A stretch of DNA of 39,516 nt, from the NCBI GenBank assembly GCA_019429445.1, contig JAHYIW010000026.1, positions 1 through 39,516 of the forward strand. Direction: 5' to 3'. This stretch comes from Desulfuromonadaceae bacterium (lineage in GTDB: Bacteria; Desulfobacterota; Desulfuromonadia; Desulfuromonadales; JAHYIW01). Each line of letters begins with the position of its first letter. Position 1 is the stretch's first letter. The position numbers and the translations under genes were made by a program. Below are positions 10,456-25,865 of the stretch, piece by piece. The notes beneath the pieces were generated by a model. It saw only the letters and a list, made by a program, of their open reading frames with translations. It was not told the origin of the DNA and ran no database searches.

Positions 10456-12018
10456 TCAGCTGTAACCATCCGCCACCGTCACGTCCCTCTTGCGCCGACT
10501 TTCGCCCTGATTGATCACCCGGATCGCGCTCGTCCCCTCCACCGGGCATTTGGTCTCGCAAATCCCGCAACCGATACAGAGTTTGTCCACCACCTGCGGA
10601 ATCTTGATGCGGCGTGTCTCGCCGTTGACTAACACGTCCTGCTCCGCAAAGATGATCGCCTTCGACCCGGTCGGACAGTGTTCCTCACAAACCAGACATT
10701 CTTCATGTTTGGCAAACGGCAGGCAGCGGTTCTTGTCGAAGACCGCCAGACCGATCACGGTCTGGCGCTTCTGCTCCAGCGGTAACCGCTTGATCGCTCC
10801 GGTCGGGCAGACCTGACCGCAGAGGGTGCAGTTGTATTCACAATAGCCGATACGCGGGATCAAAAGCGGCGTCCACAGACCGACCGGGCCCGCCTGACCG
10901 AGGGCGGGATGGAGGGCACCGCCGATACAGACGCGCATACACTCGCCGCAACGGATACAGCGCTGTAAAAATTCCATTTCTGTCGCCGCTCCGGGAGGGC
11001 GCAAGAGATAAGAATCGAGCTTGACCGCTGCCGGGGTGGCACGTACCACCGGAGCAAACAGAGCTCCGGCAGCGAGCGAGGCCACGACCCCGCGCCGGGT
11101 CAGATCGACCCCCGGCCGCCGCCCGGAGGGTTGCCGGAACGCAAAGTCGACGCGCTCATGGGGGCAGTAATCGAGACAATCGAGACACAGCACACATTCG
11201 CTGCTGTGCTGCCCCGACTCATCCGCTGCGGACATGCGACAGGCACTGTTGCACACCTTGCAGTCGTTACAGGCTCCCGCCGGTATGCGGCGCAACAGGG
11301 CATGGCCACTACATAGTCCGAGCAGCGCGCCGAGCGGACAAAGGTTTTTGCACCAGAACCGGCGCTCAATTTTTTCCAGCAGCAGAATCGCCACAAAGAC
11401 CAGCAGGGTAAAGACTCCCAGTTGATAATAGGGCTGATAAAAGGCCATCAGGTGATCACGAAAAAACGGATAAGATCGATTGACCGCGTCACCAACAAGA
11501 GGCACCGGCTGGGCGTAGGTGAGATCGAACAGGGCGTTCAGGATCAGGTTGAAAGCCGGGTAGATTGCCAGCGTCAGCGTCCGCAAAAAGATCGCCAATG
11601 GATCAAAGAGACCGAGGAGCTGGACACCGAAGAATGCCGCGCCGAGCAGGCCGATCAACAACAGATATTTGACCCGTCGCCAGCGATAATCGACGGCATG
11701 GCCAGACGCCGACAGCTGCGCCCCACACCCGTCGAGGGTGGCGCCAAGCGGGCAGATCCAGCCGCAGAAAAACCGTCCCAGCAGGATGGTCAGAAGTACC
11801 AGCAGCAGCGCAGGCCACAGCAATGCCCAGCCAAAACCGCCCGGTGCCAGCAGATCTGCCAACGCGGCAAGCGGATCAAGACGAAAGAGGAGACTGACCG
11901 GGTACGGGAGTTCATCGAGTCCGCGATATTCGGTCTGCCAGAACAGCCAGACAAAGAGGGCCAGACAGACGCTTTGCGATAGTTGCCGCAAGCGGCGCAA
12001 ACGGCTGGTACGCAGCAT
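10456..12018 (-). CDS. NapH-type membrane polyferredoxin fused to a periplasmic-type ferredoxin
   Basis: This 520-residue protein has an N-terminal NapH/NosR-like membrane domain (residues ~1-220, four or more helices) with CGWICPLG (85-92) and CKNLCPLG (223-230). A 4Fe-4S pair follows (CNDCKVCNSAC, CVLCLDCLDYC). Then comes an internal twin-arginine-like segment (LTRRGVVASLAAGALFAPVV, ~306-325) and a NapG-like region with about four more clusters, among them CIRCGECMRVC, CTLCGQVCPTG and CIGCGICETKC. It resembles NapH and NapG joined in one chain and should carry electrons from the quinone pool or cytoplasm to the periplasmic side. ATG 12018 lies 1 nt after the DUF362 stop; upstream in-frame starts would overlap that gene. 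Its partner is probably the DUF362 protein. Confidence 0.85.
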   Translation of the reverse strand: MLRTSRLRRLRQLSQSVCLALFVWLFWQTEYRGLDELPYPVSLLFRLDPLAALADLLAPGGFGWALLWPALLLVLLTILLGRFFCGWICPLGATLDGCGAQLSASGHAVDYRWRRVKYLLLIGLLGAAFFGVQLLGLFDPLAIFLRTLTLAIYPAFNLILNALFDLTYAQPVPLVGDAVNRSYPFFRDHLMAFYQPYYQLGVFTLLVFVAILLLEKIERRFWCKNLCPLGALLGLCSGHALLRRIPAGACNDCKVCNSACRMSAADESGQHSSECVLCLDCLDYCPHERVDFAFRQPSGRRPGVDLTRRGVVASLAAGALFAPVVRATPAAVKLDSYLLRPPGAATEMEFLQRCIRCGECMRVCIGGALHPALGQAGPVGLWTPLLIPRIGYCEYNCTLCGQVCPTGAIKRLPLEQKRQTVIGLAVFDKNRCLPFAKHEECLVCEEHCPTGSKAIIFAEQDVLVNGETRRIKIPQVVDKLCIGCGICETKCPVEGTSAIRVINQGESRRKRDVTVADGYS

Positions 12019-12019
12019 C

Positions 12020-12934
12020 TCAGACCCGCCGCATCCGGGCCAGGTCGATCCCCCCCAGACCACGCCTGGCGGCAGCGGCAAGGGTCGGAATGTCGTGAGG
12101 TTGAAAGCCAAAGAGGGTTGCCGCGTAGCTGTCGGCCGCGACAATGTCAGGGGACGCGATCAGCGTGTCGAGTTGCCGGACATCCTCCGCTCGCCCCCCT
12201 TGCGGACCGTTGGCCACCAGAATCCGGGTGGCATCGATGACGGTCAGATCGGAGTGAACGACCAGATTGATATCACACAGCGCCGCGGCGATATTGCGAT
12301 GCAGGACGCCGCGATTGCCGCCAATCACCCCCATAATATTTTTCATCCCGAGGGTCAGTTTTGAAATCGAGTGATGTTTGGCAATCGGCACATTGATCAA
12401 CCGATCAGCTTCCAGCGCGGGCTGATAGAACTCCCATTCACGCAGTTCTTGACCATCTTTGATCACCAGTTTCTGGTAGGCACGACGATCCATGTATTCA
12501 ACCGTCACCCGCTCGGAGCGCAGTGCTTCAACCGCTGCGGCGATGCCACTCTGGGCATAACAGCGCCGTGGATCGTTGCAGGTTCGATCAAACACCCGCA
12601 CCCTTTTCGCCCCCGCTTCGAGACAGGCCGTGACCAGCGTGGCAACCAATTCGGGGGAGGTGTTTGCCGCCAGCTCCGGGGTCCGGTCCCAGCCGATATT
12701 CGGTTTGACCACCACCGTCTCGCCGCGCTTGACGTAGTTCTCCATCCCGCCGAGCGCCGCCAGGGTATCGATCACCAGCTGCTCGATATTCTTCCCGGTG
12801 CGTACCGCCAGCAGCGACCCTTCCGCTGCAAACACCGGTCGGGAGGGGAGCGCCAGAATCGGCACCGCACCGCCCACGGTACTCAACAGCGCAGCACGCA
12901 ATGACTGACGAATAAACTCACGACGATCAAGCAT
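12020..12934 (-). CDS. Tat-exported DUF362 protein
   Basis: This 304-residue protein begins MLDRREFIRQSLRAALLSTV, a twin-arginine-type signal (DRREFI) with a hydrophobic stretch and a likely cut after PVFA. The rest matches DUF362: ETVVVKPNIGWDR, RVRVFDRTCNDPRRCYAQSG, NVPIAKHHSISKLTLGMKN, VIDATRILVANGPQGG. DUF362 proteins often sit beside ferredoxins and are usually annotated as iron-sulfur related, though this one has few cysteines. It lies 1 nt before the polyferredoxin gene, so the two are co-expressed and probably act together. The reaction is unknown. Confidence 0.82.
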   Translation of the reverse strand: MLDRREFIRQSLRAALLSTVGGAVPILALPSRPVFAAEGSLLAVRTGKNIEQLVIDTLAALGGMENYVKRGETVVVKPNIGWDRTPELAANTSPELVATLVTACLEAGAKRVRVFDRTCNDPRRCYAQSGIAAAVEALRSERVTVEYMDRRAYQKLVIKDGQELREWEFYQPALEADRLINVPIAKHHSISKLTLGMKNIMGVIGGNRGVLHRNIAAALCDINLVVHSDLTVIDATRILVANGPQGGRAEDVRQLDTLIASPDIVAADSYAATLFGFQPHDIPTLAAAARRGLGGIDLARMRRV

Positions 12935-12985
12935 GGTGCTTTCCTTTACCCCGTTGATCTGCCAGACAACATCACCGGGCTCAAT

Positions 12986-13591
12986 TCAGATAAAACGTCC
13001 TGCCTGCAAAAACTTCCGGGCCGCCTCGCGCGGCGACGTAGCGGCCGCCGCTCTTTCCAGCCCTGCCATCGCTTCGCCATCAATGGCACCGCCAAGCTTG
13101 TCGATCAGGCGCGCCAGCGCCGGAAATTTTTTCAAGGTATCTTTACGGACGACCGGTGCTGCCTGGGCAGGAACACCCTCCGGTGCGACCCCATTGGCTT
13201 CAAATCCGAGGGGCTTGAGCCAGATCAGATTCAACTCCTGATTGTAGGTCGACTTGACCGCCTGATAGAGAGCAGCGGCGTCCGCCAGCGGTGCGCGTCC
13301 GAGAATTGTCACCTGACCAACACCGGTGTACTCAACGTACAGATCGATATCGGCCTTCAGCAGCGCCTGATGGGTATCGATATGCGACGGATAGCTGACG
13401 ATCTTGACCGTCGTTCCGGTACGCTCACTGATCAGCAGACCCAACATCTCGGCCAGGATCTCCTGCTGGAGCGTTCCGCTGGCACCGATCACCAACGTCT
13501 TGCCAACACAGCCCCACGCACTCGCCGACAGAAAGGCAAGCAGAACCAATCCTGTCAAAATAATTTTTCCCGCTGTTCTGATGTAACCCAT
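12986..13591 (-). CDS. Minimal OpuAC-like (glycine betaine-type) binding protein
   Basis: This 201-residue protein has a Sec signal peptide (residues ~1-28, ending SAWG). The mature part matches quaternary-amine binding proteins: LVIGASGTLQQEILAEML, then DIDLYVEYTG, LNLIWLKPLGFEA, and a C-terminal APVVRKDTLKKFPALA block. Family members usually have about 270-300 residues. Here the sequence passes from the GFEANG region almost directly to the VVRKDTL region, so most of one lobe seems to be missing. No ABC permease or ATPase is nearby. ATG 13591 has AGGAGG 7 nt upstream; a longer frame to 13729 would overlap the beta-helix gene. It may bind a ligand in a reduced pocket or be structural. Confidence 0.75.
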   Translation of the reverse strand: MGYIRTAGKIILTGLVLLAFLSASAWGCVGKTLVIGASGTLQQEILAEMLGLLISERTGTTVKIVSYPSHIDTHQALLKADIDLYVEYTGVGQVTILGRAPLADAAALYQAVKSTYNQELNLIWLKPLGFEANGVAPEGVPAQAAPVVRKDTLKKFPALARLIDKLGGAIDGEAMAGLERAAAATSPREAARKFLQAGRFI

Positions 13592-13625
13592 CAGCGAACC
13601 TCCTTGCTGATAATCTGTTATTTTC

Positions 13626-14489
13626 TTAGCGGCACTCAGGGTGCAGGGCGATTTCCGCGCCCAGCGGCTCAGGGGTATGAACCCGCCCCAATGCACGATC
13701 GCTGCGCTGGTCAAAGATTGATGCGGCAATCACGGCGGGATCGGTGGTTCCCCACCAGTTGCGTGGCAGGCTGATGTCAGCGTGCTGATTCAACCCCATT
13801 TTGACCGCATAACGACGACTGCCAACGATGTTGTTCTGTTCGATCACGGTCCTGTTCTCGGCACGCGTTACGACAAAGATGCCGATCTCGTTGTCACGGA
13901 TATCGTTGTGGTGAATCTGCGCCGTTCCCCGTCGTTCTTCGTAGCGCAAACCGTGAGTGTTCTCATAGATACGATTCCCCGACAGTTCCAGCCTGACGGT
14001 TGAAAATCGCACCCCGTCAACGTTGTAACGAAAGATCGAATCGACCACCCGGGCGGCACAAAAGTGGATCTGAATCCCGCTGTAGGCATATTCGGAGAGC
14101 AGGTGGGCAACCTCCCCTTTCCGCGCAAAGTCGAGATAGAGATATTTCCAGTCGGCCGGTTGCGGATTTGGCGCGGCGCTGGTGAGGACAATCGGCGCGG
14201 CGGCGGTACCGACAGCGATCAATTCCCCCTCGACCATAATCTCCCCGTCGCCGATGCCGTCGCCGTCCCGATCGAAGCGCTCAAAACGTATCCGCGTGCC
14301 GGGCAGGAGGGTCAAAGTGCCGCTCTTTTTGACCGTGACCACGCCCCGGACAAGAATCTCCCCCGACCAGACGACGGCGCTGTCAATCGTCAAATCTTCA
14401 TCGATCAGCTGCGGACGCACCCCCAGACAGCTGCCGAGCAACAGCGGTGCAGCGCAAACAAAGGCAACAAGAGAAAAACGGCTCTTCAC
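13626..14489 (-). CDS. Beta-helix lipoprotein (BH-4)
   Basis: This 287-residue protein starts at GTG 14489, overlapping the DUF3467 stop by one base. A lipoprotein signal ends LLLGSC (Cys ~21). A WSGEILVRGVVTVKKSGTLT strand region, then PGTRIRFERFDRDGDGIGDG with an Asp-rich calcium-like loop, leads into a right-handed parallel beta-helix of NosD/CASH type (repeats such as NRIYENTHGLRY, NDIRDNEIGIFV). It ends in RNWWGTTD, the cap motif shared by the beta-helix proteins of this operon. It is clearly paralogous to the N-terminal half of the 22981-24816 protein but lacks its propeller. It should be a periplasmic or outer-membrane lipoprotein; function unknown. Confidence 0.82.
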   Translation of the reverse strand: MKSRFSLVAFVCAAPLLLGSCLGVRPQLIDEDLTIDSAVVWSGEILVRGVVTVKKSGTLTLLPGTRIRFERFDRDGDGIGDGEIMVEGELIAVGTAAAPIVLTSAAPNPQPADWKYLYLDFARKGEVAHLLSEYAYSGIQIHFCAARVVDSIFRYNVDGVRFSTVRLELSGNRIYENTHGLRYEERRGTAQIHHNDIRDNEIGIFVVTRAENRTVIEQNNIVGSRRYAVKMGLNQHADISLPRNWWGTTDPAVIAASIFDQRSDRALGRVHTPEPLGAEIALHPECR

Positions 14490-14800
14490 TAGTGATAACC
14501 TTCAACCTCCGGTGCGGCGACCTGGTGATTGAGGTTGATGGTGCCGAACTGCTGCTCGTATTTGGCGACACTGTCCTGCAAGACCAGCAACAGTCGTTTG
14601 ATATGAGCCGGGGATGAAATCACCCGCGAACGGACCTTGGCGCGGGGCGCCTGCGGCTGCACAAAGATAAAGTCAAGGGTAAACTCCGCATCGCTGTGAT
14701 TGACCATCGCCAGATTGGCATAGACCCCCTGGGCGATCTCTTCATCGAGCTGGATGTCTATTTTGACTTCCTTGACTTCCGGTTTTTTCTTCTCGTTCAC
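14489..14800 (-). CDS. DUF3467 family protein
   Basis: This 103-residue cytoplasmic-looking protein starts at GTG 14800 with GGAGAG upstream. The core is typical of DUF3467: DEEIAQGVYANLAMVNHSDA, EFTLDFIFVQPQAPRAKVRS, RVISSPAHIKRLLLVLQDSV and a C-terminal YEQQFG. The family is small and of unknown function. Lacking a signal peptide, it is the only clearly soluble cytoplasmic product in the operon besides possible domains of the membrane proteins. It overlaps the next gene by 1 nt (TAGTG) and follows the Creg-4 stop by 13 nt, which suggests a role in regulating or assembling the system. That role is inferred. Confidence 0.85.
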   Translation of the reverse strand: MNEKKKPEVKEVKIDIQLDEEIAQGVYANLAMVNHSDAEFTLDFIFVQPQAPRAKVRSRVISSPAHIKRLLLVLQDSVAKYEQQFGTINLNHQVAAPEVEGYH

Positions 14801-14813: not shown

Positions 14814-15884
14814 TCAATCGAGCCGAACCGGCTCGACGACAATGGTGATATTGTCAACGACAGCGCCTGCGCTAACCTCAAGACCGTGGTCGGCACTGTT
14901 ATCGTACATGCCGAACCGTTCCGTCGGCAACGGTGAATCACCGTACTCTTCGCGGGCACCGAGATAGTACCTTCCGGCTGCGGGCAGACTCAGCACAAAC
15001 GTCCCGTCAGCGCCAAGTGGCGCACTCAACGCCGCCGGACGTTTGTGCCCGATCACCCGCTCGGTATAGGCGAAGACATGGACCCCGGCCGCCGGATGTC
15101 CGGCACTGTCGAGCACCCGCCCTTTCACCAGCGCGCCGCCGGGGCGGCTGAACGTTTCACTCCCCGCCGCCGCATGGGTCTTGCGAATGGCGGACAAGGT
15201 GACAACCGCCGTCTTCCCCGCCAGGGCGGTGAGTGGATTTGCGGTATAGATGGCCGACCAGTCTCCTGCCATGACCGGTCCGACCTGCCCCCCCGCCAAC
15301 CGTTTGCGGGCGACGAGAAAATAATCACTTTCCGGCAGACCATCAAAGGCGAAGAAGCCGTCTTTCCCGGTCGGCGGTGACCGGCGGTAACCCTGCCCCT
15401 TGAGATCATCCGCCACGTCAAGGTAGAGGTAGACGTAAGCATCAGCCAACGGCTTGCCCTCCGCCAGTACCTGCCCTTCGATCGCCGCACTGTAGGGATC
15501 AGCATACAATTGGCTGGTTGCCGGTCGGATCGTCACCGCCTGCAATCCCGCCCAGGTGGAAGCCTGTGCTGTCACCGTGACCGGATTTCTCCCACAGAAA
15601 GCAAACAGTCCGGTAGCGGCCAGGCGACCGTACACGGCATAAACACCCGCAGGCAATTCCAGACGATAGCTGCCGTCTGCGCCGCTGAGCGTCGTCGCGA
15701 GCGGCCTGGTGCTGTAATCAAGGCTACCATAGGCGGCCACCGTCATTCCCGCTACCGGCTCATCCCCCTTGATCACCCGCCCTTCGATGATCCCGTTGTT
15801 GGCCGCACCGGCCACACTGGCCGTCGTGCCCAGCCAAGTCATCAGGACGCACAAAAAAATAACCCTTGCCAAGATACGCATCAT
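14814..15884 (-). CDS. Exported protein with three carboxypeptidase-regulatory-like domains (Creg-4)
   Basis: This 356-residue protein has a Sec signal peptide (residues 1-27). Three tandem transthyretin/CarboxypepD_reg-like beta-sandwich domains lie at about 30-125, 140-240 and 255-350. Each has the pattern G.V...G.PVAG..V.AY..., DGSYRLELPAGVYAVYGR, and a terminal NP-type turn (CGRNPVTV; YTANPLTA). The third domain ends in a GRYYLGARE, MYDNSADHGLEV block shared with its paralogs. Such domains are usually structural or carbohydrate-binding modules in secreted proteins. It overlaps the beta-helix gene at 15881-17257 by 4 nt. It is one of four paralogs alternating with beta-helix genes. Confidence 0.82.
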   Translation of the reverse strand: MMRILARVIFLCVLMTWLGTTASVAGAANNGIIEGRVIKGDEPVAGMTVAAYGSLDYSTRPLATTLSGADGSYRLELPAGVYAVYGRLAATGLFAFCGRNPVTVTAQASTWAGLQAVTIRPATSQLYADPYSAAIEGQVLAEGKPLADAYVYLYLDVADDLKGQGYRRSPPTGKDGFFAFDGLPESDYFLVARKRLAGGQVGPVMAGDWSAIYTANPLTALAGKTAVVTLSAIRKTHAAAGSETFSRPGGALVKGRVLDSAGHPAAGVHVFAYTERVIGHKRPAALSAPLGADGTFVLSLPAAGRYYLGAREEYGDSPLPTERFGMYDNSADHGLEVSAGAVVDNITIVVEPVRLD

Positions 15885-17257
15885 TTACCTCGCGGGCCGA
15901 TTTCCGCCAGCGGTTTCTTTAGCCAGGGACGAAAACGCACAATATCAAGCACGTAACTCTCCGGCCCGAACCCTTCATAAGTAACGGTCGGTTTGTCATG
16001 ACGGTCGAAGAACAGCGCGCTGTTGCCGTCGCCCACTGCGGCCAACTGCGCGGTGTCGTCCCCCCACCAGTTGCCGCTGACATCAACGTAATCGGTAAAT
16101 TCGGTCGGGGCCTTGGCGAGCAGGGGGTTCTGGGTGCGCCGCGCCTGCGCCTGCTCCATAACGATCCCCTTTGACCCGGAACGTTTTTCCCAGTCAGCGC
16201 TCTGAAAAATACCGAGTTCAACCACCTGGCGATTGCGGATAAAGTGGTTATCTTTCACCTGCGGATACGATGAATAATCGCAGAAAAGAACCACATCATT
16301 CTTTTCGAAGAGATTTTTTTTCAGCGTCGGGTTCGCCTTGCGATAGTTATAAACGGCGAGGCGATTGTCACGAAACAGGCTGTGGGTAATCGCCGGAGAG
16401 CCGAACTGGTCATTACGCACTGCGGTCTGATTGGCAATGAATGTGCTATCTTCGACCTGCGGATAGGAGAAGGAAAAATTGACCAGCGCGTTGTCGTTGC
16501 CGGAAAAATAATTGCGCGTGATCAGCGGTGTACTCTGGGTCTGGTTGCAATAGATGCCGACCTTGTTGTCAACGAAGCGGTTGTTACTGAGTTCGTCGGT
16601 GTACTTCTGCATCAGGCCGATCGCCTGTTCATTTTTCTCAAAGGTATTGCCACTGATCGGTCCGAAACTGCCATGCGATGCAATGATGGCGGCCTTGCGG
16701 TGTCCGCTGAAACGGTTGTGGCGAATTGTCGGCCGCGATTTCATTTCCACGTCAACCCCGATGTTGTTATCCGTAAAGGTACAATCCTCAATCAGGGTTT
16801 TGGTCTCGCGCAGCAATTTAACCGCCGTTTCGCAGTCGTGAAAACGGCAGTTGCGAATCAGCAGTTCTGTTTCGATCGTCGATAGTGCTACCTTTGCAGA
16901 GGAAAACTCGGCATAGGTCACAACATGGGGCCCCTTGCCACGCCCGTAAAAATCGATCCCCAACCATCCCGGCGGAGTCTGAAAGATGACGGGCCGGGTG
17001 CTGCGGCCATCAATTCGCAACAGTCCCTGCACGGTAATTTTCACGTTGGGGTCGGTCACCACAATCGTTGTGCCCGGTGCGACGAGCAACTCCGCATCGA
17101 CCGGAACGATAACACTCGCGGTGAGCTGCACCTGCTCGCGCCAGACGGTTTTTCCCGTCAGGGTTTGCGGCGCGGCGGCAACGGCAAGCACCGGGAGCAG
17201 CACCAGCGCCAGCAGCACACCCCCAACCAGATTAGCGCGACTCAAGCTGTTCCACAT
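15881..17257 (-). CDS. Exported right-handed beta-helix protein (BH-3)
   Basis: This 458-residue protein has a Sec signal peptide (hydrophobic residues 11-28, ending AVAA). A WREQVQLTASVIVPVDAELL entry region and PGTTIVV strand lead into a long parallel beta-helix of about 12-14 rungs (for example NCRFHDCETAV, CTFTDNNIGVDV, NRFVDNKVGIYC, NYFSGNDNALVN, NHFIRNRQVVEL). It ends with GNWWGDDT and YVLDIVRFRPWL. It resembles NosD, the periplasmic beta-helix protein of nitrous oxide reductase maturation, but nothing else of a nos operon is present. It is most similar to the 18262-19452 protein, sharing the tail motif. A scaffold or glycan-related role is possible. Confidence 0.83.
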   Translation of the reverse strand: MWNSLSRANLVGGVLLALVLLPVLAVAAAPQTLTGKTVWREQVQLTASVIVPVDAELLVAPGTTIVVTDPNVKITVQGLLRIDGRSTRPVIFQTPPGWLGIDFYGRGKGPHVVTYAEFSSAKVALSTIETELLIRNCRFHDCETAVKLLRETKTLIEDCTFTDNNIGVDVEMKSRPTIRHNRFSGHRKAAIIASHGSFGPISGNTFEKNEQAIGLMQKYTDELSNNRFVDNKVGIYCNQTQSTPLITRNYFSGNDNALVNFSFSYPQVEDSTFIANQTAVRNDQFGSPAITHSLFRDNRLAVYNYRKANPTLKKNLFEKNDVVLFCDYSSYPQVKDNHFIRNRQVVELGIFQSADWEKRSGSKGIVMEQAQARRTQNPLLAKAPTEFTDYVDVSGNWWGDDTAQLAAVGDGNSALFFDRHDKPTVTYEGFGPESYVLDIVRFRPWLKKPLAEIGPRGK

Positions 17258-18257
17258 TGATCGTCACCTCATGGGTCGTTGTTTGCGCATCAAAGCGCAG
17301 ACCGGGCCCCGCCAACCGTCCGTAAAATTCGTTCGTGGCAGGTCCGCCGAATTCCTGCCGGGCCAGCAGGTGGTAGGGGCCGTCACCGGGAAGCGGCAGT
17401 TCAAACCGGCCATCGGCACCGGTTGGCGCGGAAAAATAATCAGGCGTGCCGGTCATCGTCGCCGTAGCGTAGGCGAAGACATAGATCCCCGCGACCGGCT
17501 CTTTGCCCCCCCCGTGAACCACCCCGCGCACACCATGGAACGGCACCGGGTCGTCGGCTTCGAGCATTGACAAGCGGGTGATCGTCTCGATATGGATATC
17601 ACGCACTTCCCCCGCCTCGATGCGCACCGGGTTGCCATAATAGTAATTAAAATAATCGCCGATTTCAATCGGGCCGTAGCGTCCGCCCTTGAGCCGTTTT
17701 CGCGCCAGCAGATAGTAGTCACCGGGCGGTAGACGCAAACGAAAGGTCCCCTTTTCAACCGGGTGAACCAGATAACCCGGGCCCTTGAAACCATTTTCCG
17801 GGTCGTTATAAACGTAGAGATAAACCTTTTCGAGCGGCTTCCCCTGGAAGGTGATTTCCCCTTCAATCGCGGAGCGCGTCCCTGGTTGCGGCGGAGCCTC
17901 TTGCGGTACGCGAATCAGGTTGAAGCCGACATTGGTGTAACGCCCCGCCACAACCCGCACCGGACTGCCGCTGTAATAACAGAAGTGGTCCCCCGGTTGC
18001 GGAGCAGCGGGGTAATCGCGGGCGGTCAGAAAATATTCACCGGGCGGCAAATCGAGCTGATAGGTGCCGTCGAGTGCCGTTGTTTCGGCGCGACCGACCT
18101 CCTTGCCCAGAGCGATGTCGGCTACCGCGCGATAAGCACGCACACTGACCCCGGGAACCAGTTCGCCGCGCCAGGCCGCACGCCCTTTAACGCCGCTCGC
18201 CGCCCACAGCGGTTGCGTCAGCCCTAAAAAAATGACGAAAAAAACAAGCTGTTTCAC
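17232..18257 (-). CDS. Exported protein with three carboxypeptidase-regulatory-like domains (Creg-3)
   Basis: This 341-residue protein starts at GTG 18257 with AGGAG 7 nt upstream, inside the end of the previous gene; longer in-frame extensions lack support. A Sec signal peptide covers residues 1-19 (ending LWAA). Three beta-sandwich domains follow (~20-115, 125-225, 235-335) with DGTYQLDLPPGEYFLTARD, FRLRLPPGDYYLLARKRLKG and DGRFELPLPGDGPYHLLARQ. The paired turns YYSGSPVRV and YYYGNPVRI show the operon-specific GNP signature. It ends with the DAQTTTHEVTINVEQLE strand and overlaps the next beta-helix gene by 26 nt. Confidence 0.82.
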   Translation of the reverse strand: MKQLVFFVIFLGLTQPLWAASGVKGRAAWRGELVPGVSVRAYRAVADIALGKEVGRAETTALDGTYQLDLPPGEYFLTARDYPAAPQPGDHFCYYSGSPVRVVAGRYTNVGFNLIRVPQEAPPQPGTRSAIEGEITFQGKPLEKVYLYVYNDPENGFKGPGYLVHPVEKGTFRLRLPPGDYYLLARKRLKGGRYGPIEIGDYFNYYYGNPVRIEAGEVRDIHIETITRLSMLEADDPVPFHGVRGVVHGGGKEPVAGIYVFAYATATMTGTPDYFSAPTGADGRFELPLPGDGPYHLLARQEFGGPATNEFYGRLAGPGLRFDAQTTTHEVTINVEQLESR

Positions 18258-18261
18258 GCGA

Positions 18262-19452
18262 TTACTCCTGCAAAGTGGTCGCGGCTTGCGTCCGCCAGGG
18301 GGTAAAAACAACGATATCCAGGGGATAGTCCTTCCCCCCCTCAGCGAAAGTCGGGGTGTCACGGCCATCATCGATGAACGAAGGGTTGCCCTGCGCGCCA
18401 CTGTGCGCCAATTCGGCAGTCCCCTGTTCGCCCCACCAGTTATTGATTGCCTGCACCTTGCCGTCCAGTAAACGCGGTCGGCGCTCTGCTTCACTGACCG
18501 GTGTCCCCGCTTTACGCCCGAAAGCACCTTGTTGATTCGCGACACTTTGCCGCTCGGAGCTGCCCCGCTCGCGCTCCCAGAGCGAAGACTGATATTCCAG
18601 GACCAACGCCTTCTGGTTGGCAATAAAATCGTTGGTGCTGATCTCCGGATAAGAAGAATAACCAACCGAAATTGCAATCCGGTTACGCGCCAGCAGGTTG
18701 CCGCTGATCTGTGCGTCGGAGCGTCGGTAAAGGCGAATCCCGGTTTCGTTACCGGTCAGTCGATTCCCCCGCAGTACCGGGCGAGCCGCACGATCAACCT
18801 CGATCGCCACCCCGTTGGCCGTAAAATAGTTAGCGCTGATCTGCGCATCGCTGCCGTAGTAGGCAATCATCAGCCCGGTCGGGTTCCCCGCAAACTGATT
18901 CCCAACAAAGCGCTGCGGAACGGCCCGGTAAATATATGCGCCGTACTTGCCGTTCGCACTGAAGCGACAATCTTCAACCACCGGAATCGCCTCATCTTTA
19001 ACGAACAGCCCAACTTTGCGATTTTTTTCAAAGACACAGGCCGTGATCAGCGCGGCACCCTTGCGCCGAACCTCTACGCCGACGTCATTGTCGGTCAAAA
19101 TCAGTCGTTCCAGACGCGGCGCTCCGCCACCGATCAGCACAGCGGTACGTGCTCCGCTGATCACGCTATCACGCAATACAGTGCGCTGATCACAATTTTT
19201 CAACTCGATCCCGCTCCACCCCGAACCGTCGATCCGGCTCCGCTCAACCCGCAGCACACCGGTAACCTCCAACCCGCCACCGGAAAAATGAATGATGCTG
19301 TGCGGTGCAATCGTCAACGTCACTTCCGGGGCAACGCGAACCATCTCGTGCAGGTTCCGTTCGCCGCGCCAGGTTGTATCGACCGAAATCGTCAGCGCCG
19401 CAGCGGGCAGCGGCAGCAACAGCAAGATCAACAAAAGCAGGGGGCGAGACAT
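18262..19452 (-). CDS. Exported right-handed beta-helix protein (BH-2)
   Basis: This 396-residue protein has a leucine-rich Sec signal peptide (residues ~4-20, ending AAA). It then runs TTWRGERNLHEMVRVAPEVT, a long beta-helix (rungs such as SVISGARTAVLIGG, CVFEKNRKVGLFV, NYFTANGVAIEV, NRLTGNETGIRL, NDFIANQKALVL) and the cap NNWWGEQG with tail YPLDIVVFTPWR. Start choice: ATG 19452 overlaps the previous stop (TAATG) and has GAGG 7 nt upstream, so I prefer it to ATG 19458. It is a paralog of BH-3 and is flanked by Creg-2 and Creg-3. Envelope function unknown. Confidence 0.82.
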   Translation of the reverse strand: MSRPLLLLILLLLPLPAAALTISVDTTWRGERNLHEMVRVAPEVTLTIAPHSIIHFSGGGLEVTGVLRVERSRIDGSGWSGIELKNCDQRTVLRDSVISGARTAVLIGGGAPRLERLILTDNDVGVEVRRKGAALITACVFEKNRKVGLFVKDEAIPVVEDCRFSANGKYGAYIYRAVPQRFVGNQFAGNPTGLMIAYYGSDAQISANYFTANGVAIEVDRAARPVLRGNRLTGNETGIRLYRRSDAQISGNLLARNRIAISVGYSSYPEISTNDFIANQKALVLEYQSSLWERERGSSERQSVANQQGAFGRKAGTPVSEAERRPRLLDGKVQAINNWWGEQGTAELAHSGAQGNPSFIDDGRDTPTFAEGGKDYPLDIVVFTPWRTQAATTLQE

Positions 19453-20531
19453 TACCATACCTCACGAACGGTCAGCCCACCAAGGACGGTGGTTTTTCCA
19501 TCGGCCACCGCGACGCCATGATCAGGGCGCTGATCGTAGGTTCCTACCCATTCCCCCGGTTCCAGCGGCCCGCCAAAGGTGCTGCGAGCGCCGATATAAT
19601 AGGTGCCGCCGCTTCCGAGATGAAGCGTAAAGTGGCCATCCTCACCGGTTGGTGTCGAGATATAGGTCGGTTTCCCGACCATCCGGCTGTCAAGATAGGC
19701 AAACGCATAAACGCCCGCCACCGGCGCGCCATCGCTGTCAACCATGCGCCCGCTGAGCGCGGTTCCGGTCGCCGCAAACTTCCCCTGACCGAGGCGCGCG
19801 GCACGCTGGGTGGCGCTGACAACTTTCAGTTCCAAATCACCGATATCGCGGGTCTTGCCGCGCTCCAGACGCAACGGGTTGCCCACGTAAATCCCGTTGT
19901 AATCCCCCGCCTGAGGCTCCCCCATGCGCGCCCCGTCGGCACGCTTGCGCGCGGCAAGAAAAAACTTTCCGGCCGGCAGCGGAATGTCAAAGCGACCGGC
20001 GCTATCGGTCAATACCGCATCCCCGAAAGACGGTCCCATCATCCCGGCGGCATCCTCACTGTAAACATAAACGTAGGCATTCTTGAGCGCCTGCCCGGCA
20101 AGGGTAACCCGTCCGCTCACCCCGGTGTCGGGATCAGCGACCAGCTGACCGTCACGCCCCATCTCCCGCAAACTGAACGGGGCAATCTCGCGCAAACCGT
20201 CGGTCACCGTGAGCGGATTGGCCGGACACTCCGCCATCAACATCCGCGTCCGCCCGGACTGGTCATAGTGGCGCAGTTTGCCGATCAGAAAATAGTTCCC
20301 GCTGGGCAGTGTCAACCGGAAACGCCCACGGTTATCGGTCGTGGTGACCGCAAACGGCTGGGTCGAGCGATCCTTTTCCGCCTTGAGATAGATTTCAACC
20401 TGGGCGCCGGACAATGGCTGGTCAGCAAACAACAGTGTCCCGCTCAAGCCGCTTTCGCCGGAAGGGGTACAGGCGGCAAGCAGCAGTGCCGCGCCACAGA
20501 TTAAAGTGAAAAATCGGGATAATCGGATCAT
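19452..20531 (-). CDS. Lipoprotein with three carboxypeptidase-regulatory-like domains (Creg-2)
   Basis: This 359-residue lipoprotein has the signal ending ALLLAAC (Cys ~21). It has three beta-sandwich domains (~28-125, 135-235, 255-355) with RGRFRLTLPSGNYFLIGKL, AGRFDIPLPAGKFFLAARKR and DGHFTLHLGSGGTYYIGARS, and turns CPANPLTV and YVGNPLRL. The third domain ends PGEWVGTYDQRPDHGVAV, the same tail block as the paralog at 24810-25865. It overlaps the spermidine-synthase-like gene upstream (ATGA) and BH-2 downstream (TAATG). It is likely periplasmic or outer-membrane anchored; ligand unknown. Confidence 0.82.
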   Translation of the reverse strand: MIRLSRFFTLICGAALLLAACTPSGESGLSGTLLFADQPLSGAQVEIYLKAEKDRSTQPFAVTTTDNRGRFRLTLPSGNYFLIGKLRHYDQSGRTRMLMAECPANPLTVTDGLREIAPFSLREMGRDGQLVADPDTGVSGRVTLAGQALKNAYVYVYSEDAAGMMGPSFGDAVLTDSAGRFDIPLPAGKFFLAARKRADGARMGEPQAGDYNGIYVGNPLRLERGKTRDIGDLELKVVSATQRAARLGQGKFAATGTALSGRMVDSDGAPVAGVYAFAYLDSRMVGKPTYISTPTGEDGHFTLHLGSGGTYYIGARSTFGGPLEPGEWVGTYDQRPDHGVAVADGKTTVLGGLTVREVW

Positions 20532-22984
20532 GAAGATTCCGTCGTCAGCGTCGGCCTGACCACCAGCACCAAGCCCAGAGCCAGCAGATAAACTGTTTCA
20601 CCGCCAAGCAGTGTGACATTAAAACCGAAGTTCATCGCCATCACCACCGCCAGAATAGCGCCAAGGACACTGGTTGCACTGTTGATCCCCCAGCTCCACG
20701 GCACACCGGTCGCATCATTTCCGTGAAAGAGACGCATCCCCAGCGGCAGCGGCATACCGAGCAGCAAGCCGAGCGGAGCAAGCAACAGGGTTGCGATCAG
20801 GCAACGCCAGAGAATGGTGTTGCCCATCAACGTTTCAAGGACCGGCGACAAAGCAAAGATATACAGGTTGAAGAGCAAAACCAGTGCCAAGAGAATGCGC
20901 GGCAGGATCTGTCGCTCACGACCGCGCGTTATCCGTCCGGCAAGCAAACTGCCGAGGCCGGAAAAGATCAGTAATGAAAAAAGAATCACCGCCAGTGAAT
21001 AGATCGGTGGCCCCAGAAAAAGGATAAAGCGTCGCAGCAAACCGATCTCGATCAGCATAAAGCCGAGACCGAGACAGGCAAAGTAACCGATCGGTGCCAT
21101 ACCGCTGCGCGCCAGGTCGCTACGGCGGGTCAACCACAGCGGCGCGACGATGAAGAGGGCGACCAGCACCGTCACCACCAGCAGCAGGTTACGCAGGATC
21201 AGCACCGCCCGGTCTTCAAAATTGCTTTGCTCCAAAAAGGTGAAAAGTCGAATAAAATCGACCGGTTTATACATATAATAGAAAAATGGATTATTGTCGT
21301 CGGTGGGGCGCACATTAAACGGAAAATCGCGATAGAATGCCTCGCTGCCGTTTGAAGAAAGGAGTTCCCAGAAAGGGCCATCCCCCGCCGTCTGCCCCGG
21401 CAAAAGCACAATCTGGAAAGCCTTGTCGCGCGCCTCCTCCTTGAGTCGCGCAATGTCGGCAACGGTAAAGGGTGAACGCTTGAGCATGAAGTTGGCCAGT
21501 CCCCGCTCCTTGATCACAGCGATATGTTGCGCCGGGTCAGCAACACCGAGATCGTTCAGCAATGCCAGCCCGAGGGAGACCAGACGTAACGATTCGCGCT
21601 CAAAAATAAACCGTGAAATAGTCAGAATTCCGTCATCGGTCAGATGATCCCAGTAGTCGTGAAAGGCTTCCAGCGTATAGAGATTGTTTTCCGACAGGGT
21701 AAAGGCCCCCGCTGCCGGGGCCATCCGTCCGAAGACCGCCGAGGCCTGAATCACATCGTAGCGCTGTGCAGAGCGGCGAATGAAACTCCGTCCTTCGTCG
21801 ATCACCACCCGGACTTCGGGACGTTGATACAACTGGCCGGTGAAGGCACCGAATTCCTCGTTAACCGCCTCGACGATCAGCGGGTTGACTTCGACCGCCG
21901 TGACGTGAGCGGCACCCATGCTCAGCGCCGCCAGAACATCTTTCCCTCCCCCCGGACCGATGACCAGGCCGCGGGCATGTTCCTTGAGGGTATACGGCAG
22001 GGCAATAACGTTATTGCGGAAAAAATCGAGTCCCTCATCACCGTTCCAGCGATACATGGTGGTGTAGCCGGTATCATCCACCACCATACCGAGCTGCTCG
22101 GGAACCGGTCCGCGATAGGTTCGTGACAGCCCCCACGCCTGCCCCATCTCCTGACTCTGTGACGGATAGACCGCAACCCGTGAAAAGGAGTTCCACGAAC
22201 TCCAGAGCAGATTCGGTTCGTAGCGCCCGCGCACAAAACGGATATCGGCAAAACCGTTCCAGTAGTTACCTGCGGCCAACAGCAAAAAGGTACAGAGCAG
22301 GCCGCCAAGCACCACGCGCGGCATGCGTCCGCCCCCCGCAGGGGTCAGCAGAGCGGCGGCCAGCAGGCCGATCGTTGCGATCAACGGTAACGCCGTAACC
22401 CCGCCGACCAGCTTCAACAACAAGATAATCAGCAAACAGCCGGTCCCGGCACCGAGCAGGTCCCAGCAGTAGAGGCGGTTGATATGCTCCACGTAGCGCG
22501 ACAACAACATGGTCACCGCCAGGCCGCTGAAGAAAAAAGGCAAGGCGGTGAGCAGGTAGAGGGCGGCAAGGACCAGCAGCAGCTCCCCTGGCACCCCTTT
22601 ATCGTAAAATCCCTGCTGAAACGGTTGATAAAAGGGCTGATGGAAAAAGGACAGAACCTTGAAGCCGAATTGCGGTGACCAGCGAAAGAGGTAAAAGAGA
22701 CCGAAAAAAAAGGCGACGCAGAGGCCGAAAAGCACCGCGCAGCGCGCTGCCAGCAGGTTGGCTTTCGACGTCGGAAAATGGCGCGGCAGCAGGTACACGA
22801 CCAGCGCCGCCGTGCCGAGACCAAAGAGCGCCAGAGAGATCGCCATGGAAGCAAAATGGTACCACATCAGCACCGAAAAGATCCGTGTCAGGATCAGTTC
22901 GTACATCAGGGTGGCAAGACACAGGGAAAAAAGCCCCCAACAGGTTTTTCGGCTCGGGGCGGTCATGTTACGTGTAGTTGTCAT
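20528..22984 (-). CDS. Membrane protein with spermidine-synthase-like domain
   Basis: This 818-residue protein has an N-terminal bundle of about 7 membrane helices (~15-245). A soluble Rossmann methyltransferase-like domain of the spermidine synthase family follows (~300-530), then a second membrane bundle (~600-810). The SAM-type site is seen as LVIGPGGGKDVLAALSMG followed by VTAVEVNPLIVEAV, then YDVIQASAVFGR. Such membrane-embedded SpeE-like proteins occur widely in bacteria, and their substrates are mostly unknown. There is no reason to assume polyamine synthesis here. It overlaps both neighbours by 4 nt. In an operon of exported beta proteins it might modify or flip a small molecule at the membrane, which is speculation. 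Confidence 0.82.
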   Translation of the reverse strand: MTTTRNMTAPSRKTCWGLFSLCLATLMYELILTRIFSVLMWYHFASMAISLALFGLGTAALVVYLLPRHFPTSKANLLAARCAVLFGLCVAFFFGLFYLFRWSPQFGFKVLSFFHQPFYQPFQQGFYDKGVPGELLLVLAALYLLTALPFFFSGLAVTMLLSRYVEHINRLYCWDLLGAGTGCLLIILLLKLVGGVTALPLIATIGLLAAALLTPAGGGRMPRVVLGGLLCTFLLLAAGNYWNGFADIRFVRGRYEPNLLWSSWNSFSRVAVYPSQSQEMGQAWGLSRTYRGPVPEQLGMVVDDTGYTTMYRWNGDEGLDFFRNNVIALPYTLKEHARGLVIGPGGGKDVLAALSMGAAHVTAVEVNPLIVEAVNEEFGAFTGQLYQRPEVRVVIDEGRSFIRRSAQRYDVIQASAVFGRMAPAAGAFTLSENNLYTLEAFHDYWDHLTDDGILTISRFIFERESLRLVSLGLALLNDLGVADPAQHIAVIKERGLANFMLKRSPFTVADIARLKEEARDKAFQIVLLPGQTAGDGPFWELLSSNGSEAFYRDFPFNVRPTDDNNPFFYYMYKPVDFIRLFTFLEQSNFEDRAVLILRNLLLVVTVLVALFIVAPLWLTRRSDLARSGMAPIGYFACLGLGFMLIEIGLLRRFILFLGPPIYSLAVILFSLLIFSGLGSLLAGRITRGRERQILPRILLALVLLFNLYIFALSPVLETLMGNTILWRCLIATLLLAPLGLLLGMPLPLGMRLFHGNDATGVPWSWGINSATSVLGAILAVVMAMNFGFNVTLLGGETVYLLALGLVLVVRPTLTTESS

Positions 22985-24816
22985 GGTGATTCGTTGATCC
23001 GCACGCTGTGCAAGCGATGGTCACGTGCCCCGAAAAAGAGTTGGCGGTCGTGCAGCAGTGGAATACTCTGGACCGGTGCGCCAATCAACAGCGTCGTTAT
23101 TGCATCACCACTGTCAGCATTGACGGCCAGCAGGCGACCATCGTTAAGGGCCAGAAACAGACGCCGTCCACTGAGCAGCGGCGTCGCATATGCCGGTCCA
23201 CCCAACGTGCTGCGCCAGATCGTTGTGCCGTCGGCGGAGTCAAGTTTCCACAAACCACCCGCGGCAGTGGCAACATAAATGGCGCGATCGTCAGCGACCG
23301 GCGCAGCATAGTAGCACACTTCGCCGAGCGCTCGTGACCAGCGGCGCTCACCAGTGAAGGTGAAGGCGGTGACCGTTCCCTCGCGGTCGACCACCAGCGG
23401 CCCCGCTGCGCCCAGCAACGGGGAACTGAGGAGCGGTGCGGCGAGCGCAGCAGCCCAGACTTCCTTGCCTTCAAGATCGAGAACCACCAGCCGTCCCGTT
23501 GCGGACGTGAGATAAATACGCCCTGCAGCAACGATCGGCATCGCCCGCAACGGCTGCCCGGCGGCGTACTGCCAGAGCAATGCGCCGCTGTCGGCGTGCA
23601 GCGCGTAGAGGATCCCGTTCCACGCCGGAACCAGCAGCAGGTTACCAGCCAACACCACCCCCCCCTGACGATGATCGTCCGCCACCGATTGCGGATAGCT
23701 AAAGGACCAGAGCAGTGCTCCGCTGTCGCGCTCGCGACACTGGACCTCGCGTCCCCAGTTGTGCAGATAGATCCGCTGCTCAGCAACCGCCAATGGCGCA
23801 TCGATCACATCACCACTGTCAATTCGCCAGCGCCGCTGCCCCGCCAGATCCAGCGCCTGAAGGCTGCCATCCCAGCTGGCAACAAAGAGAGTGCCCTTTG
23901 CCAGCAACGGTGGGGCATCGATAAACCCGCCGGTTTCCACCGTCCATCGCGGCTCGAATGTCAACCGGTCACGTGGCCCGCTGCCGGGCACCCACGTGGT
24001 CAGCGGAGACAACGTCACGGTGCCGATCGCGGGATCCTGACGACGATCAAAAATTGTGGCGGCAGCACGCTGCGGGTCAGCGTCTCCCCACCAATTGTCA
24101 CTCAGCGCCACATCATTGGCAAAAAAATCACCGAGACGAAAATTCCATTGATTGCCGTAGAGGTTGTTGTCACGAATCGTATACGCACGATCGGTTTCAA
24201 AGAGGAAGATTCCAGTGCCATTGTAACGAATGATATTGCGCTCCAGGGTCACCGTCGAGTTGCGAAAATTAACCCCCTTGCCAAGGTTGTTTTCAATCAG
24301 ATTATTGCGCAGAACAAAGCTGGCCTGCCCCAACCGCGAACCATCAATGTTAAAGTGAATGGTGCAGTCCGCAACAATCCCGCGGGTGAAATGTGCGTGC
24401 AGGGTGTAGGCGGAATCACGAATTTCACAGTAACGCAACTCGACATTGCGCGAAAAATCGACCCGTAATTCGAGCCAGTCGCCCGGTTGTGGATCCGCCT
24501 CGGCACTGTGAAAAAGGATCGGGCGAGCGGATGTTCCGATCGCCTGGAGCTCCCCCTCCACCACCAGCACCGCATCACCGAGGCCATCGCGATTCACATC
24601 GCGGCGGACGAAGGCGATATCGGTTCCGGGGCGAATGGTCAGCGTAGCCCCTTTTGCTACCTTGACCGTTCCGTCGATAATGATCGAACCACTCCAGATC
24701 GCATCATCGGTCAGCGTCAATGATTTAAAATGCGTTACTTGAGGGGAGTGCACACCGGTAAAGAGACAGCCACTCAGCAGTAAAGTCGCGACGATACCAA
24801 GCAGCCGCACTACCAC
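22981..24816 (-). CDS. Lipoprotein: beta-helix fused to PQQ-type beta-propeller (BH-1)
   Basis: This 611-residue lipoprotein has the signal ending LLLSGC (Cys ~17). Residues ~30-265 are a beta-helix with WSGSIIIDGTVKVAKGATLT, the Asp-rich DVNRDGLGDA loop, rungs such as NLIENNLGKGVNF, and the cap DNWWGDAD. This part is paralogous to the 13626-14489 protein. Residues ~285-611 are a PQQ/BamB-like propeller with repeated strand motifs (WTVETGGFIDAPPLLAKGTL, GSLQALDLAGQRRWRI, DSGALLWSFSYP, DSGALLWQYAAGQP, DGRLLAVNADSGDAIT). The propeller lacks obvious PQQ ligands, so it is likely a protein-binding platform as in BamB. It overlaps Creg-1 by 7 nt and the next gene by 4 nt. Confidence 0.83.
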   Translation of the reverse strand: MVVRLLGIVATLLLSGCLFTGVHSPQVTHFKSLTLTDDAIWSGSIIIDGTVKVAKGATLTIRPGTDIAFVRRDVNRDGLGDAVLVVEGELQAIGTSARPILFHSAEADPQPGDWLELRVDFSRNVELRYCEIRDSAYTLHAHFTRGIVADCTIHFNIDGSRLGQASFVLRNNLIENNLGKGVNFRNSTVTLERNIIRYNGTGIFLFETDRAYTIRDNNLYGNQWNFRLGDFFANDVALSDNWWGDADPQRAAATIFDRRQDPAIGTVTLSPLTTWVPGSGPRDRLTFEPRWTVETGGFIDAPPLLAKGTLFVASWDGSLQALDLAGQRRWRIDSGDVIDAPLAVAEQRIYLHNWGREVQCRERDSGALLWSFSYPQSVADDHRQGGVVLAGNLLLVPAWNGILYALHADSGALLWQYAAGQPLRAMPIVAAGRIYLTSATGRLVVLDLEGKEVWAAALAAPLLSSPLLGAAGPLVVDREGTVTAFTFTGERRWSRALGEVCYYAAPVADDRAIYVATAAGGLWKLDSADGTTIWRSTLGGPAYATPLLSGRRLFLALNDGRLLAVNADSGDAITTLLIGAPVQSIPLLHDRQLFFGARDHRLHSVRINESP

Positions 24817-25865
24817 ATCTCCTCCACCACCAGACGGATATCCGTGCGGGTTTGACCCTTGTCGATCAACAGGGAATGGTCGGGGGTACCATCATAAACG
24901 CCATAGAGATCACCCGGGCCGGGTGCCCCGCCGAGGGTATTGCGGGCCGCCAGATAATAGGTGCCGCCGTGAGGAAAGGATAACATGAACCGCCCGTCTG
25001 CCCCGGTCGGCTGCGACACAAAGAGCGGGCGATTAAGCATTTGTGCGTTAGCGTAAAGTATCGCCCGCATCCCCGCCACCGGATTGCCTGCAACATCAAC
25101 AATTTGCCCCTGCAATGACGTATCGCCGAAGAGGTGTTCCGCATAGCGCTCGACCTTGTCCGGAACTTCGAGCAGTGCGATGCCGATCCGAGCGACCTGA
25201 TCGGCATGAACAGTCAATGGATTGTCGGCATGATAACCGTAGAGATCACCGGCGCGCAACGGTCCGAGCTGCTGTGCTCCGCGCCGCAAACGAACCAGCA
25301 GATAATAGGTTCCGGGGGGAAGTTCTGCTTCAAAATAACCTTCTGCATCGGTCGGGCCGGCAATCTGATACCCCATGCCCTTGAGCTGACTGGTCAGATC
25401 GGTATAAACAAAAACCATTGCCCCGCCCAGCGGCACCCCCTGATGAGTGACCACCCCCGCCACTCCGGTGGTCGCGAACGGTTCAAGCGGAAGGATAACA
25501 TCACGCGAAGACGAAACCAGACCGACGTTCAGTTCGGTTATCCCTGCGGCGGGAACGGTTACCGGATTGCGGCCATAATAGGCAAAAGACTCTTCTCCGC
25601 GCGCCAGCAGATAGTAATCACCCGGCGGGAGATGCAACCGAAAAGTACCGTCGGTGGCGGTCGCCACCCGGTACGGCGCGAGCCCGCGCAAGGTCGTAAC
25701 AGCAGCAGGGTAGGCATCGACAGAGGCCGCCACGCTTTGGGAGGCGCTGGTGAGCTTACCGGAAACAACGGCCCCCTCCGGCACCCTGTCGACCAGAGCA
25801 CAGGAGCACAATACGATCACTATGGAGATAATGGCGATATTTTTCATTGGCTCTGTGGTTAGCAT
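24810..25865 (-). CDS. Lipoprotein with three carboxypeptidase-regulatory-like domains (Creg-1), first gene of the operon
   Basis: This protein of up to 351 residues has a lipoprotein signal ending VLCSC. Three beta-sandwich domains lie at ~30-120, 135-235 and 250-348, with DGTFRLHLPPGDYYLLARGE, EGYFEAELPPGTYYLLVRLR and DGRFMLSFPHGGTYYLAARN, turns YYGRNPVTV and HADNPLTV, and the tail PGDLYGVYDGTPDHSLLI. The start is uncertain: ATG 25865 has GGA 7 nt upstream, while ATG 25847 (MKNIAIIS) gives a more typical signal peptide. It begins the minus-strand operon, 69 nt after the terminator of the FG-GAP gene. A palindrome at 25891-25906 may control it. Confidence 0.82.
   Translation of the reverse strand: MLTTEPMKNIAIISIVIVLCSCALVDRVPEGAVVSGKLTSASQSVAASVDAYPAAVTTLRGLAPYRVATATDGTFRLHLPPGDYYLLARGEESFAYYGRNPVTVPAAGITELNVGLVSSSRDVILPLEPFATTGVAGVVTHQGVPLGGAMVFVYTDLTSQLKGMGYQIAGPTDAEGYFEAELPPGTYYLLVRLRRGAQQLGPLRAGDLYGYHADNPLTVHADQVARIGIALLEVPDKVERYAEHLFGDTSLQGQIVDVAGNPVAGMRAILYANAQMLNRPLFVSQPTGADGRFMLSFPHGGTYYLAARNTLGGAPGPGDLYGVYDGTPDHSLLIDKGQTRTDIRLVVEEMW

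Follow-up and report, generated by a model that had tools for sequence, protein, structure and literature searches.

The 39,516-nucleotide stretch analyzed here (the window; contig JAHYIW010000026.1 of assembly GCA_019429445.1, from a Desulfuromonadaceae bacterium) carries on its minus strand a long run of genes for exported, membrane, and redox proteins. Across its order the run co-occurs with GeoRSP, a set of PqqD-like, radical S-adenosylmethionine (rSAM), and SPASM proteins whose operon in the same genome holds a gene for an 18-residue peptide. Gene families were assigned with Pfam and NCBIfam models, and curated cut-offs are those of NCBIfam. An earlier note on this DNA had read positions 10456 to 25865 as 13 minus-strand open reading frames (ORFs) in the order from Creg1 to a polyferredoxin, and Pfam and NCBIfam matches backed that order and its domain calls. 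The borders were too narrow: four same-strand upstream genes (25988-30145) also belong, because FG-GAP, ArsP, FmdE, and pseudo-AAA genes head the run in relatives, including the distant loci L104 and L108. We conclude that the run extends from 10456 to 30145. From its 5′ end, the features are as follows.

29264..30145, minus strand: pseudo-AAA+ protein of 293 amino acids (aa), Walker A lysine lost (GPLGTGIT; Pfam AAA)
28747..29274, minus strand: FmdE-like protein (PF02663) with an HGHYCPMST motif, found in 38 other loci
27786..28742, minus strand: ArsP_1-type permease (PF03773) with a CAC motif, kept in 22/22
25988..27487, minus strand: exported FG-GAP/ASPIC-UnbV propeller (Pfam)
25937..25964, minus strand: terminator-like 12-pair stem with a T-rich tail, between FG-GAP and Creg1 (terminator scan)
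24810..25865, minus strand: Creg1, three CarboxypepD_reg domains (Pfam)
22981..24816, minus strand: BH1, beta-helix lipoprotein with a BamB/PQQ-type propeller (Pfam; lipobox Cys in 23/24, HxH in 24/24)
20528..22984, minus strand: SpeE-like domain (PF01564) inserted in a multi-pass membrane protein (Pfam, NCBIfam)
19452..20531, minus strand: Creg2 (Pfam; lipobox Cys in 30/32)
18262..19458, minus strand: BH2, exported beta-helix (Pfam)
17232..18257, minus strand: Creg3, with an invariant Cys in 30/30 (Pfam, alignment)
15881..17257, minus strand: BH3, exported beta-helix (Pfam, NCBIfam)
14814..15884, minus strand: Creg4 (Pfam)
14489..14800, minus strand: DUF3467 protein (PF11950)
13626..14489, minus strand: BH4, beta-helix lipoprotein (Pfam, alignment; lipobox Cys in 23/24)
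12986..13591, minus strand: half-OpuAC, a reduced substrate-binding fold with an invariant CVGKT, 21/21 (Pfam, alignment, predicted structure)
12020..12934, minus strand: DUF362 protein with a twin-arginine-like start (PF04015, alignment)
10456..12018, minus strand: fused NapH-like/NapG-like polyferredoxin, 23 Cys kept in 14-15/15 (Pfam, NCBIfam)

Three of the mechanically called ORFs were over-long at the 5′ end, and comparison with homologues placed the likely starts of DUF3467, half-OpuAC, and Creg3 at 14800, 13591, and 18257. After this correction, neighboring genes either overlap by 1 to 26 nucleotides (nt) or are separated by 1 to 51 nt. A terminator scan of the window was uninformative, because it returned 23 sites against 23.3 in shuffled sequence. 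Two 12-pair stems flank the 13-gene run, one before Creg1 (25964-25937) and one after the ferredoxin gene (10394-10422). As the first sits between FG-GAP and Creg1, the FG-GAP product may be in excess over the products of the downstream genes.

Several proteins in the run departed from their families. The Walker A lysine expected of an active AAA+ ATPase was absent from all 27 distinct pseudo-AAA sequences, being replaced by I or M, and the protein was always 293 aa from its conserved start; the copy in genome G170 was also lysine-less (GPLGQGIT). Half-OpuAC gave a confident predicted structure (predicted local distance difference test [pLDDT], 91.5) that matched isolated OpuBC/EgtU-type chains with template modeling scores of 0.71 to 0.79 by query length and 0.49 to 0.59 by chain length, so the modeled protein appears to cover only part of the length of that fold. 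It resembles the OpuAC/EgtU-type binding proteins in fold but is about one-third shorter, and no ABC permease or ATPase lies among the run genes. A conserved pseudo-AAA+ protein and a reduced binding protein are each unusual components. The SpeE-like protein was modeled with low confidence (pLDDT, 67), and its fold search gave no match at an E value of ≤0.001; MFS-like matches at 0.02 to 0.1 are not evidence. The DUF362 N terminus has what we take to be a Tat motif, and DUF362 had no match among solved structures. DUF362 and the LarA domain DUF2088 are placed in one Pfam clan (PMC11770544). FG-GAP matched one solved structure, cartilage acidic protein 1. PF13620 stretches numbered three each in Creg1, Creg2, and Creg4 and two in Creg3, and BH1 to BH4 all matched Beta_helix/NosD in Pfam. 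The ArsP permease was weakly similar to SaoE (78 bits) and to the SO_0444 Cu/Zn efflux protein (79 bits), both below cut-off. Conserved Cys or His residues occurred in FG-GAP, Creg3, BH1 (HxH), half-OpuAC, DUF362, and ArsP (CAC), with three near-invariant Cys in FG-GAP (17/17, 16/17, and 17/17).

Conservation was followed in 118 genomes of the order. A close SpeE copy, defined as one above 400 bits (next best, 288 bits; 26 genomes with only a distant SpeE of ≤288 bits were left out), was present in 37. The order SpeE-Creg2-BH2-Creg3-BH3-Creg4 was kept in 22 of the 27 named loci from the taxonomic order, and the other five (L063, L067, L073, L075, and L080) were interrupted by contig ends. Eleven more distant named loci also had SpeE adjoining Creg and/or BH genes (L087-L089, L091-L093, L096, L104, L106-L108; L106 weakly); at least L087, L089, L092, L096, and L107 are from the same phylum as the window, as their genomes recur in the phylum sample. 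In L104 and L108 a single run held pseudo-AAA, FmdE, ArsP, FG-GAP, Creg1, BH1, SpeE, Creg2, Creg3, BH3, Creg4, BH4, half-OpuAC, DUF362, and ferredoxin genes, without BH2 and DUF3467. FG-GAP was the best-conserved member, with a median identity of 73% among close relatives (n=13) and 59% among distant ones (n=4). We conclude that the gene order is conserved beyond chance. This part of the earlier reading, exported proteins kept together and joined to a redox module, is supported.

Comparison of loci indicated that the run interleaves two modules. Module A consists of pseudo-AAA, FmdE, the ArsP permease, Creg1, BH1, DUF3467, half-OpuAC, DUF362, and the fused NapH/NapG-like ferredoxin, and module B of the FG-GAP propeller, the SpeE-like membrane protein, Creg2 to Creg4, and BH2 to BH4. 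Module A stood alone in L138 to L142, accompanied by DUF362 and by the ferredoxin (missing only from L142, which is cut by a contig end), and in L144 to L146, where neither of these two was nearby. L050 and L051 had module B by itself, whereas L043 had it with module A genes on the opposite strand. Half-OpuAC was in the same run as SpeE in 20 of the 37 SpeE genomes, nearby on the opposite strand in 3, far away on the same contig in 2, on another contig in 10 (some maybe assembly breaks), and absent from 2. Separation of the genes in relatives, which the earlier note had named as a point that would tell against its proposal, was therefore seen in part: 20 of 37 genomes keep one run, and some relatives carry two separate modules. 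A third related module (L043:2827-7087, L193, and L228) comprises an EB_dh heme-binding lipoprotein, a short Creg1′, a HEAT lipoprotein, and a NapH-like protein.

The alternation of Creg and BH genes had been taken to suggest matched pairs. In paralogue trees every Creg and BH formed its own clade, except for one Creg1 sequence beside Creg3 (support, 0.56), and the groupings were Creg2 with Creg4 (0.87), BH1 with BH4 (0.96), and BH2 with BH3 (0.87). The two trees are not congruent, contrary to the prediction from duplication of a Creg-BH cassette. Moreover, members were lost independently: BH1 occurred without a recognized Creg1, e.g., in L070 and L123, and three consecutive Creg genes occurred in L089 and L096. 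We reject matched Creg/BH pairs.

GeoRSP is a named orphan radical-SAM/PqqD set, for which NCBIfam names three proteins only (TIGR04302/04303/04304; PqqD, rSAM, and SPASM). No substrate or purpose for it was found in the literature searched. The source paper, reportedly Haft and Basu in 2011, lies outside that literature. Among the matches listed, none described envelope partners of GeoRSP or a peptide, and the terms looked up in PMC10553843, PMC8235581, and PMC5539420 did not occur. A weak extra Creg match led to a second, related operon in the genome that carries the window (G000), on contig C16 (locus L193). Its order is EB_dh, Creg1′, HEAT, NapH-like, half-OpuAC-like, BH, BH, PhnD-like, TPR, YedE, PqqD, rSAM, an 18-residue peptide, SPASM, and cysteine desulfurase, and three of its products exceeded their cut-offs: the GeoRSP rSAM (434.9 bits; cut-off, 400), YedE (380.7; 200), and the cysteine desulfurase (434.5; 377). 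A Pfam scan of 20 window proteins turned up no GeoRSP component. Because the genome's own GeoRSP copy sits on C16 and none is in the window, we regard the window as a companion of GeoRSP, not a member.

GeoRSP was found in 44 of the 118 genomes (42 over cut-off), and its distribution followed that of the run. It occurred in 40/45 genomes with half-OpuAC, the marker of module A, versus 4/73 without (a weak partial match in G100 was dropped, reducing the half-OpuAC set from 46 to 45), in 33/37 with SpeE versus 11/81 without, and in 32/36 with FG-GAP versus 12/82 without. Among 26 named genomes tested, GeoRSP was present in 11/11 with SpeE beside Creg/BH genes, 2/2 in which SpeE adjoined a BH1-like gene, and 0/13 with SpeE only (13 of 39 SpeE-only loci were tested). 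When genomes with a Creg from the phylum and the class were added, with seven genomes occurring under two handles counted once, the count was 27/29 versus 0/44 controls; the part of this count selected by Creg is partly circular, since a Creg belongs to GeoRSP operons as well. We conclude that the window modules and GeoRSP co-occur beyond chance in counts uncorrected for phylogeny.

The two gene sets were also physically joined. Contig C11 of G170 carries a minus-strand run of about 35 kb in the order FG-GAP, HEAT, ArsP, Creg1, BH, Creg4, DUF362, second FG-GAP, fused ferredoxin, Creg3, pseudo-AAA, half-OpuAC, ResB/BH, DUF362, BH, PhnD, ArsP, rSAM, SPASM, and a cytochrome with 18 CxxCH motifs. 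In the class relatives L216 and L217, Creg, BH, Creg, and half-OpuAC lie directly 5′ of ResB, NicO, TPR, BH, PqqD, rSAM, SPASM, PhnD, TPR, and YedE, and in L219, also from the class, Creg, BH, and half-OpuAC likewise adjoin PqqD-rSAM-SPASM. We conclude that the link between the window and GeoRSP stands on several independent lines. The earlier note knew of no described system of this composition; this holds for the literature searched and needs qualifying, as the wider set is linked to GeoRSP, which NCBIfam already names.

When the short ORFs of 14 GeoRSP regions were compared, one peptide family emerged, present in nine, of 18 to 20 residues with a C-terminal VHPC; a typical member reads MKKYxKPRVVGSSNVHPC-stop. 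A search for M...HPC-stop in 235 loci and the window gave 39 matches, all of the same family, in 28 genomes (hand count from locus lists). The copy in the window's own genome, MKKYLKPRIVGSSNVHPC, is an 18-residue gene at L193:5006-5062 on contig C16, between the GeoRSP rSAM and SPASM genes. The 31 distinct peptide genes, to which the viral scan below contributed one, all had a Shine-Dalgarno-like stretch within 20 nt, and conservation by codon position was 0.84, 0.78, and 0.57 for positions 1, 2, and 3, against 0.42 in the upstream and 0.36 in the downstream flank. Peptide genes lay between rSAM and SPASM in L193, L224, L230, L231, and L232, after FG-GAP in L045, L066, L068, L149, and L150, before FG-GAP in L088 and L222, between SpeE and Creg2 in L091, L093, and L106, directly after cytochrome genes or gene ends in L148, L194, and L217, and adjoining Creg or BH genes in L216, L217, and L218. 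The strict motif was not found in 6 of 20 GeoRSP regions (L221, L225, L226, L227, L229, and L233). An NCBIfam scan of seven 20-residue peptides returned no family, such models being poor on so short sequences. A degenerate DNA pattern run against 2.9 million viral contigs gave one match, a clear family copy at L236:6695-6751 on a 78-kb IMG/VR "viral" contig that may be cellular, because its three nearest ORFs match none of the module models. The micro-gene has the features of a conserved precursor peptide beside its candidate maturase, as in systems for ribosomally synthesized and post-translationally modified peptides.

Mycofactocin- and PQQ-type systems likewise combine a PqqD-like carrier with rSAM/SPASM proteins and a short peptide with a fixed C terminus, and against the mycofactocin maturase the GeoRSP rSAM reaches 195 bits. 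In contrast, many peptide copies here lie beside genes for exported proteins, a large envelope operon is attached, and the product is putative.

CxxCH-rich ORFs occurred near L051, L148, L151, L217, L221, L225, and L229, and an unrelated ORF with 31 CxxCH motifs lies in L194. The proximity of cytochromes to these loci is only suggestive, as such bacteria are rich in cytochromes. Outside the run, window positions 417-4861 hold an NHL/Ig lipoprotein gene and then a multiheme cytochrome gene, pointing towards the 3′ end of the operon; in L194, from the same genus, a peptide gene lies 44 bp past the end of a homologue, and the window copy is without one.

We propose that, within a larger system centered on cytoplasmic GeoRSP, the window encodes the envelope/redox arm, a reading for and against which we judge the case evenly balanced. 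The GeoRSP core would comprise the PqqD-like carrier, the radical-SAM enzyme, and the SPASM partner, together with the cysteine desulfurase, the YedE-type transporter, and the PhnD-like binding protein, and it probably modifies the peptide of about 18 residues that ends in Val-His-Pro-Cys. The modified product would then leave the cytoplasm or be finished outside, and the envelope arm could equally well act on it or not: exported half-OpuAC, Creg, and beta-helix proteins would bind the product and pass it along, the fused NapH/NapG ferredoxin and DUF362 would supply quinol-derived electrons, and the permease, of ArsP type here and of NicO type in some relatives, would transport a metal or a sulfur or selenium species. 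The FG-GAP propeller would be the most likely exported carrier to receive the finished center, joined in some genomes by a multiheme cytochrome. A redox or metal cofactor as the product is a tentative suggestion, somewhat less likely than not. An unlikely extension, which we give as speculation, is a peptide-derived redox or metal center of VHPC origin, made by the radical-SAM enzyme and relayed by half-binding, Ig-like, and beta-helix lipoproteins into FG-GAP and multiheme cytochromes, as an unnoticed nonheme partner of extracellular electron transfer.

Several observations weigh against the proposal that the window serves GeoRSP. The window has no peptide gene, and none was seen beside FG-GAP in most of the merged clusters examined. 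In the window's own genome, PqqD (94.7 bits; cut-off, 100) and SPASM (110.2; 300) were both under cut-off; 9 of the 13 named GeoRSP positives exceeded the 400-bit cut-off and 4 did not (271 to 391 bits), and 5 of 45 half-OpuAC genomes had no GeoRSP match. SpeE, DUF3467, and PqqD were not recognized on the G170 contig, where gene calling is crude at high GC. The co-occurrence counts ignore phylogeny, their controls are list heads rather than random draws, and the Creg-based count (44/50 versus 0/68 in the 118 genomes) is partly circular, because GeoRSP operons themselves carry a Creg. Finally, the support is at the level of sequence, and the chemistry is predicted.

One alternative is a nos-like maturation in which NosD-type beta-helices and NapGH-type electrons build a metal-sulfur center in FG-GAP without any peptide, with GeoRSP running in parallel as another pathway of that lifestyle. 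The likeness to the nos operon (NosD, NosR, NapGH), which the earlier note had drawn as a loose analogy, lies in the NosD-like beta-helices and the NapGH-like ferredoxin and is loose. This alternative accommodates the ArsP, NicO, YedE, and cysteine desulfurase genes nearby in relatives as well as the best-conserved FG-GAP with its near-invariant Cys. However, every Nos or Nap match was far under its curated cut-off: BH1, BH3, and BH4 scored 16.2 to 54.5 bits to NosD (cut-off, 300; BH2 was outside the NCBIfam scan), and the polyferredoxin scored 87 to 93.6 bits to NapG (TIGR00397; 269) and 75 to 77.9 bits to NapH (TIGR02163; 234). NosF, NosY, and NosZ were not named among the window genes scanned, and NosZ (TIGR04246) was found in 0/118 genomes by a search run without a positive control. 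Moreover, peptide genes adjoin FG-GAP and SpeE in several genomes, and the peptide therefore looks integral. Strict Nos maturation was rejected on the scores, and we consider the looser form unlikely. Plain assembly of a surface or extracellular matrix, for adhesion or as a scaffold, with GeoRSP co-occurring by lifestyle only, would fit the lipoprotein-like and exported Ig-like, beta-helix, and propeller proteins, which are common surface folds, but not the conservation of the quinol-type ferredoxin, of DUF362, of the permease, and of pseudo-AAA, nor the fusion of the run with GeoRSP in G170 and the peptide genes inside runs; it is distinctly improbable.

HgcA (NF040863) also tracked the run. 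It was found in 40/45 genomes with half-OpuAC versus 18/73 without, and in the phylum sample in 23/29 with Creg versus 96/366; in 21 of the 40 genomes having both, no more than 15 kb separated hgcA from half-OpuAC, and hgcAB lay near module A, e.g., in L138, L144, L146, L153, L179, and L180. The nearby hgcAB genes in loci of the order (e.g., L153, L179, and L180) are on the opposite strand within a conserved housekeeping neighborhood, and no module model matched beside hgcA in the seven distant genomes with readable hgcA surroundings (L166-L171 and L173). HgcA was not found in 5/45 half-OpuAC genomes or in L104, L106, and L108, and GeoRSP was found in 0/20 HgcA-positive, Creg-negative genomes tested. 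HgcAB was rejected as the partner, its co-occurrence being strong yet weaker than that of GeoRSP, and its link to the run is probably indirect. Handling of mercury or organometals, with the run serving HgcAB and ArsP exporting an organometal, draws on that co-occurrence and proximity and is very unlikely in view of the opposite-strand setting, the GeoRSP-free HgcA genomes, and the full runs without HgcA in L104 and L108. In a Smithella metagenome-assembled genome with SpeE but no Creg neighbors (L174:9899-13292), hgcA is followed by ArsP-like permease and ArsR-like genes (ArsR by eye).

A conserved exported set of mud-dwelling anaerobes travels with an orphan radical-SAM system and a previously unnoticed peptide, which hints at an unexplored envelope cofactor derived from a peptide and serving as a redox or metal center. 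The candidate precursor peptide and the conserved exported partners open the substrate and purpose of GeoRSP to direct tests. A redox or metal cofactor as product would give the envelopes of metal-reducing bacteria a new component.

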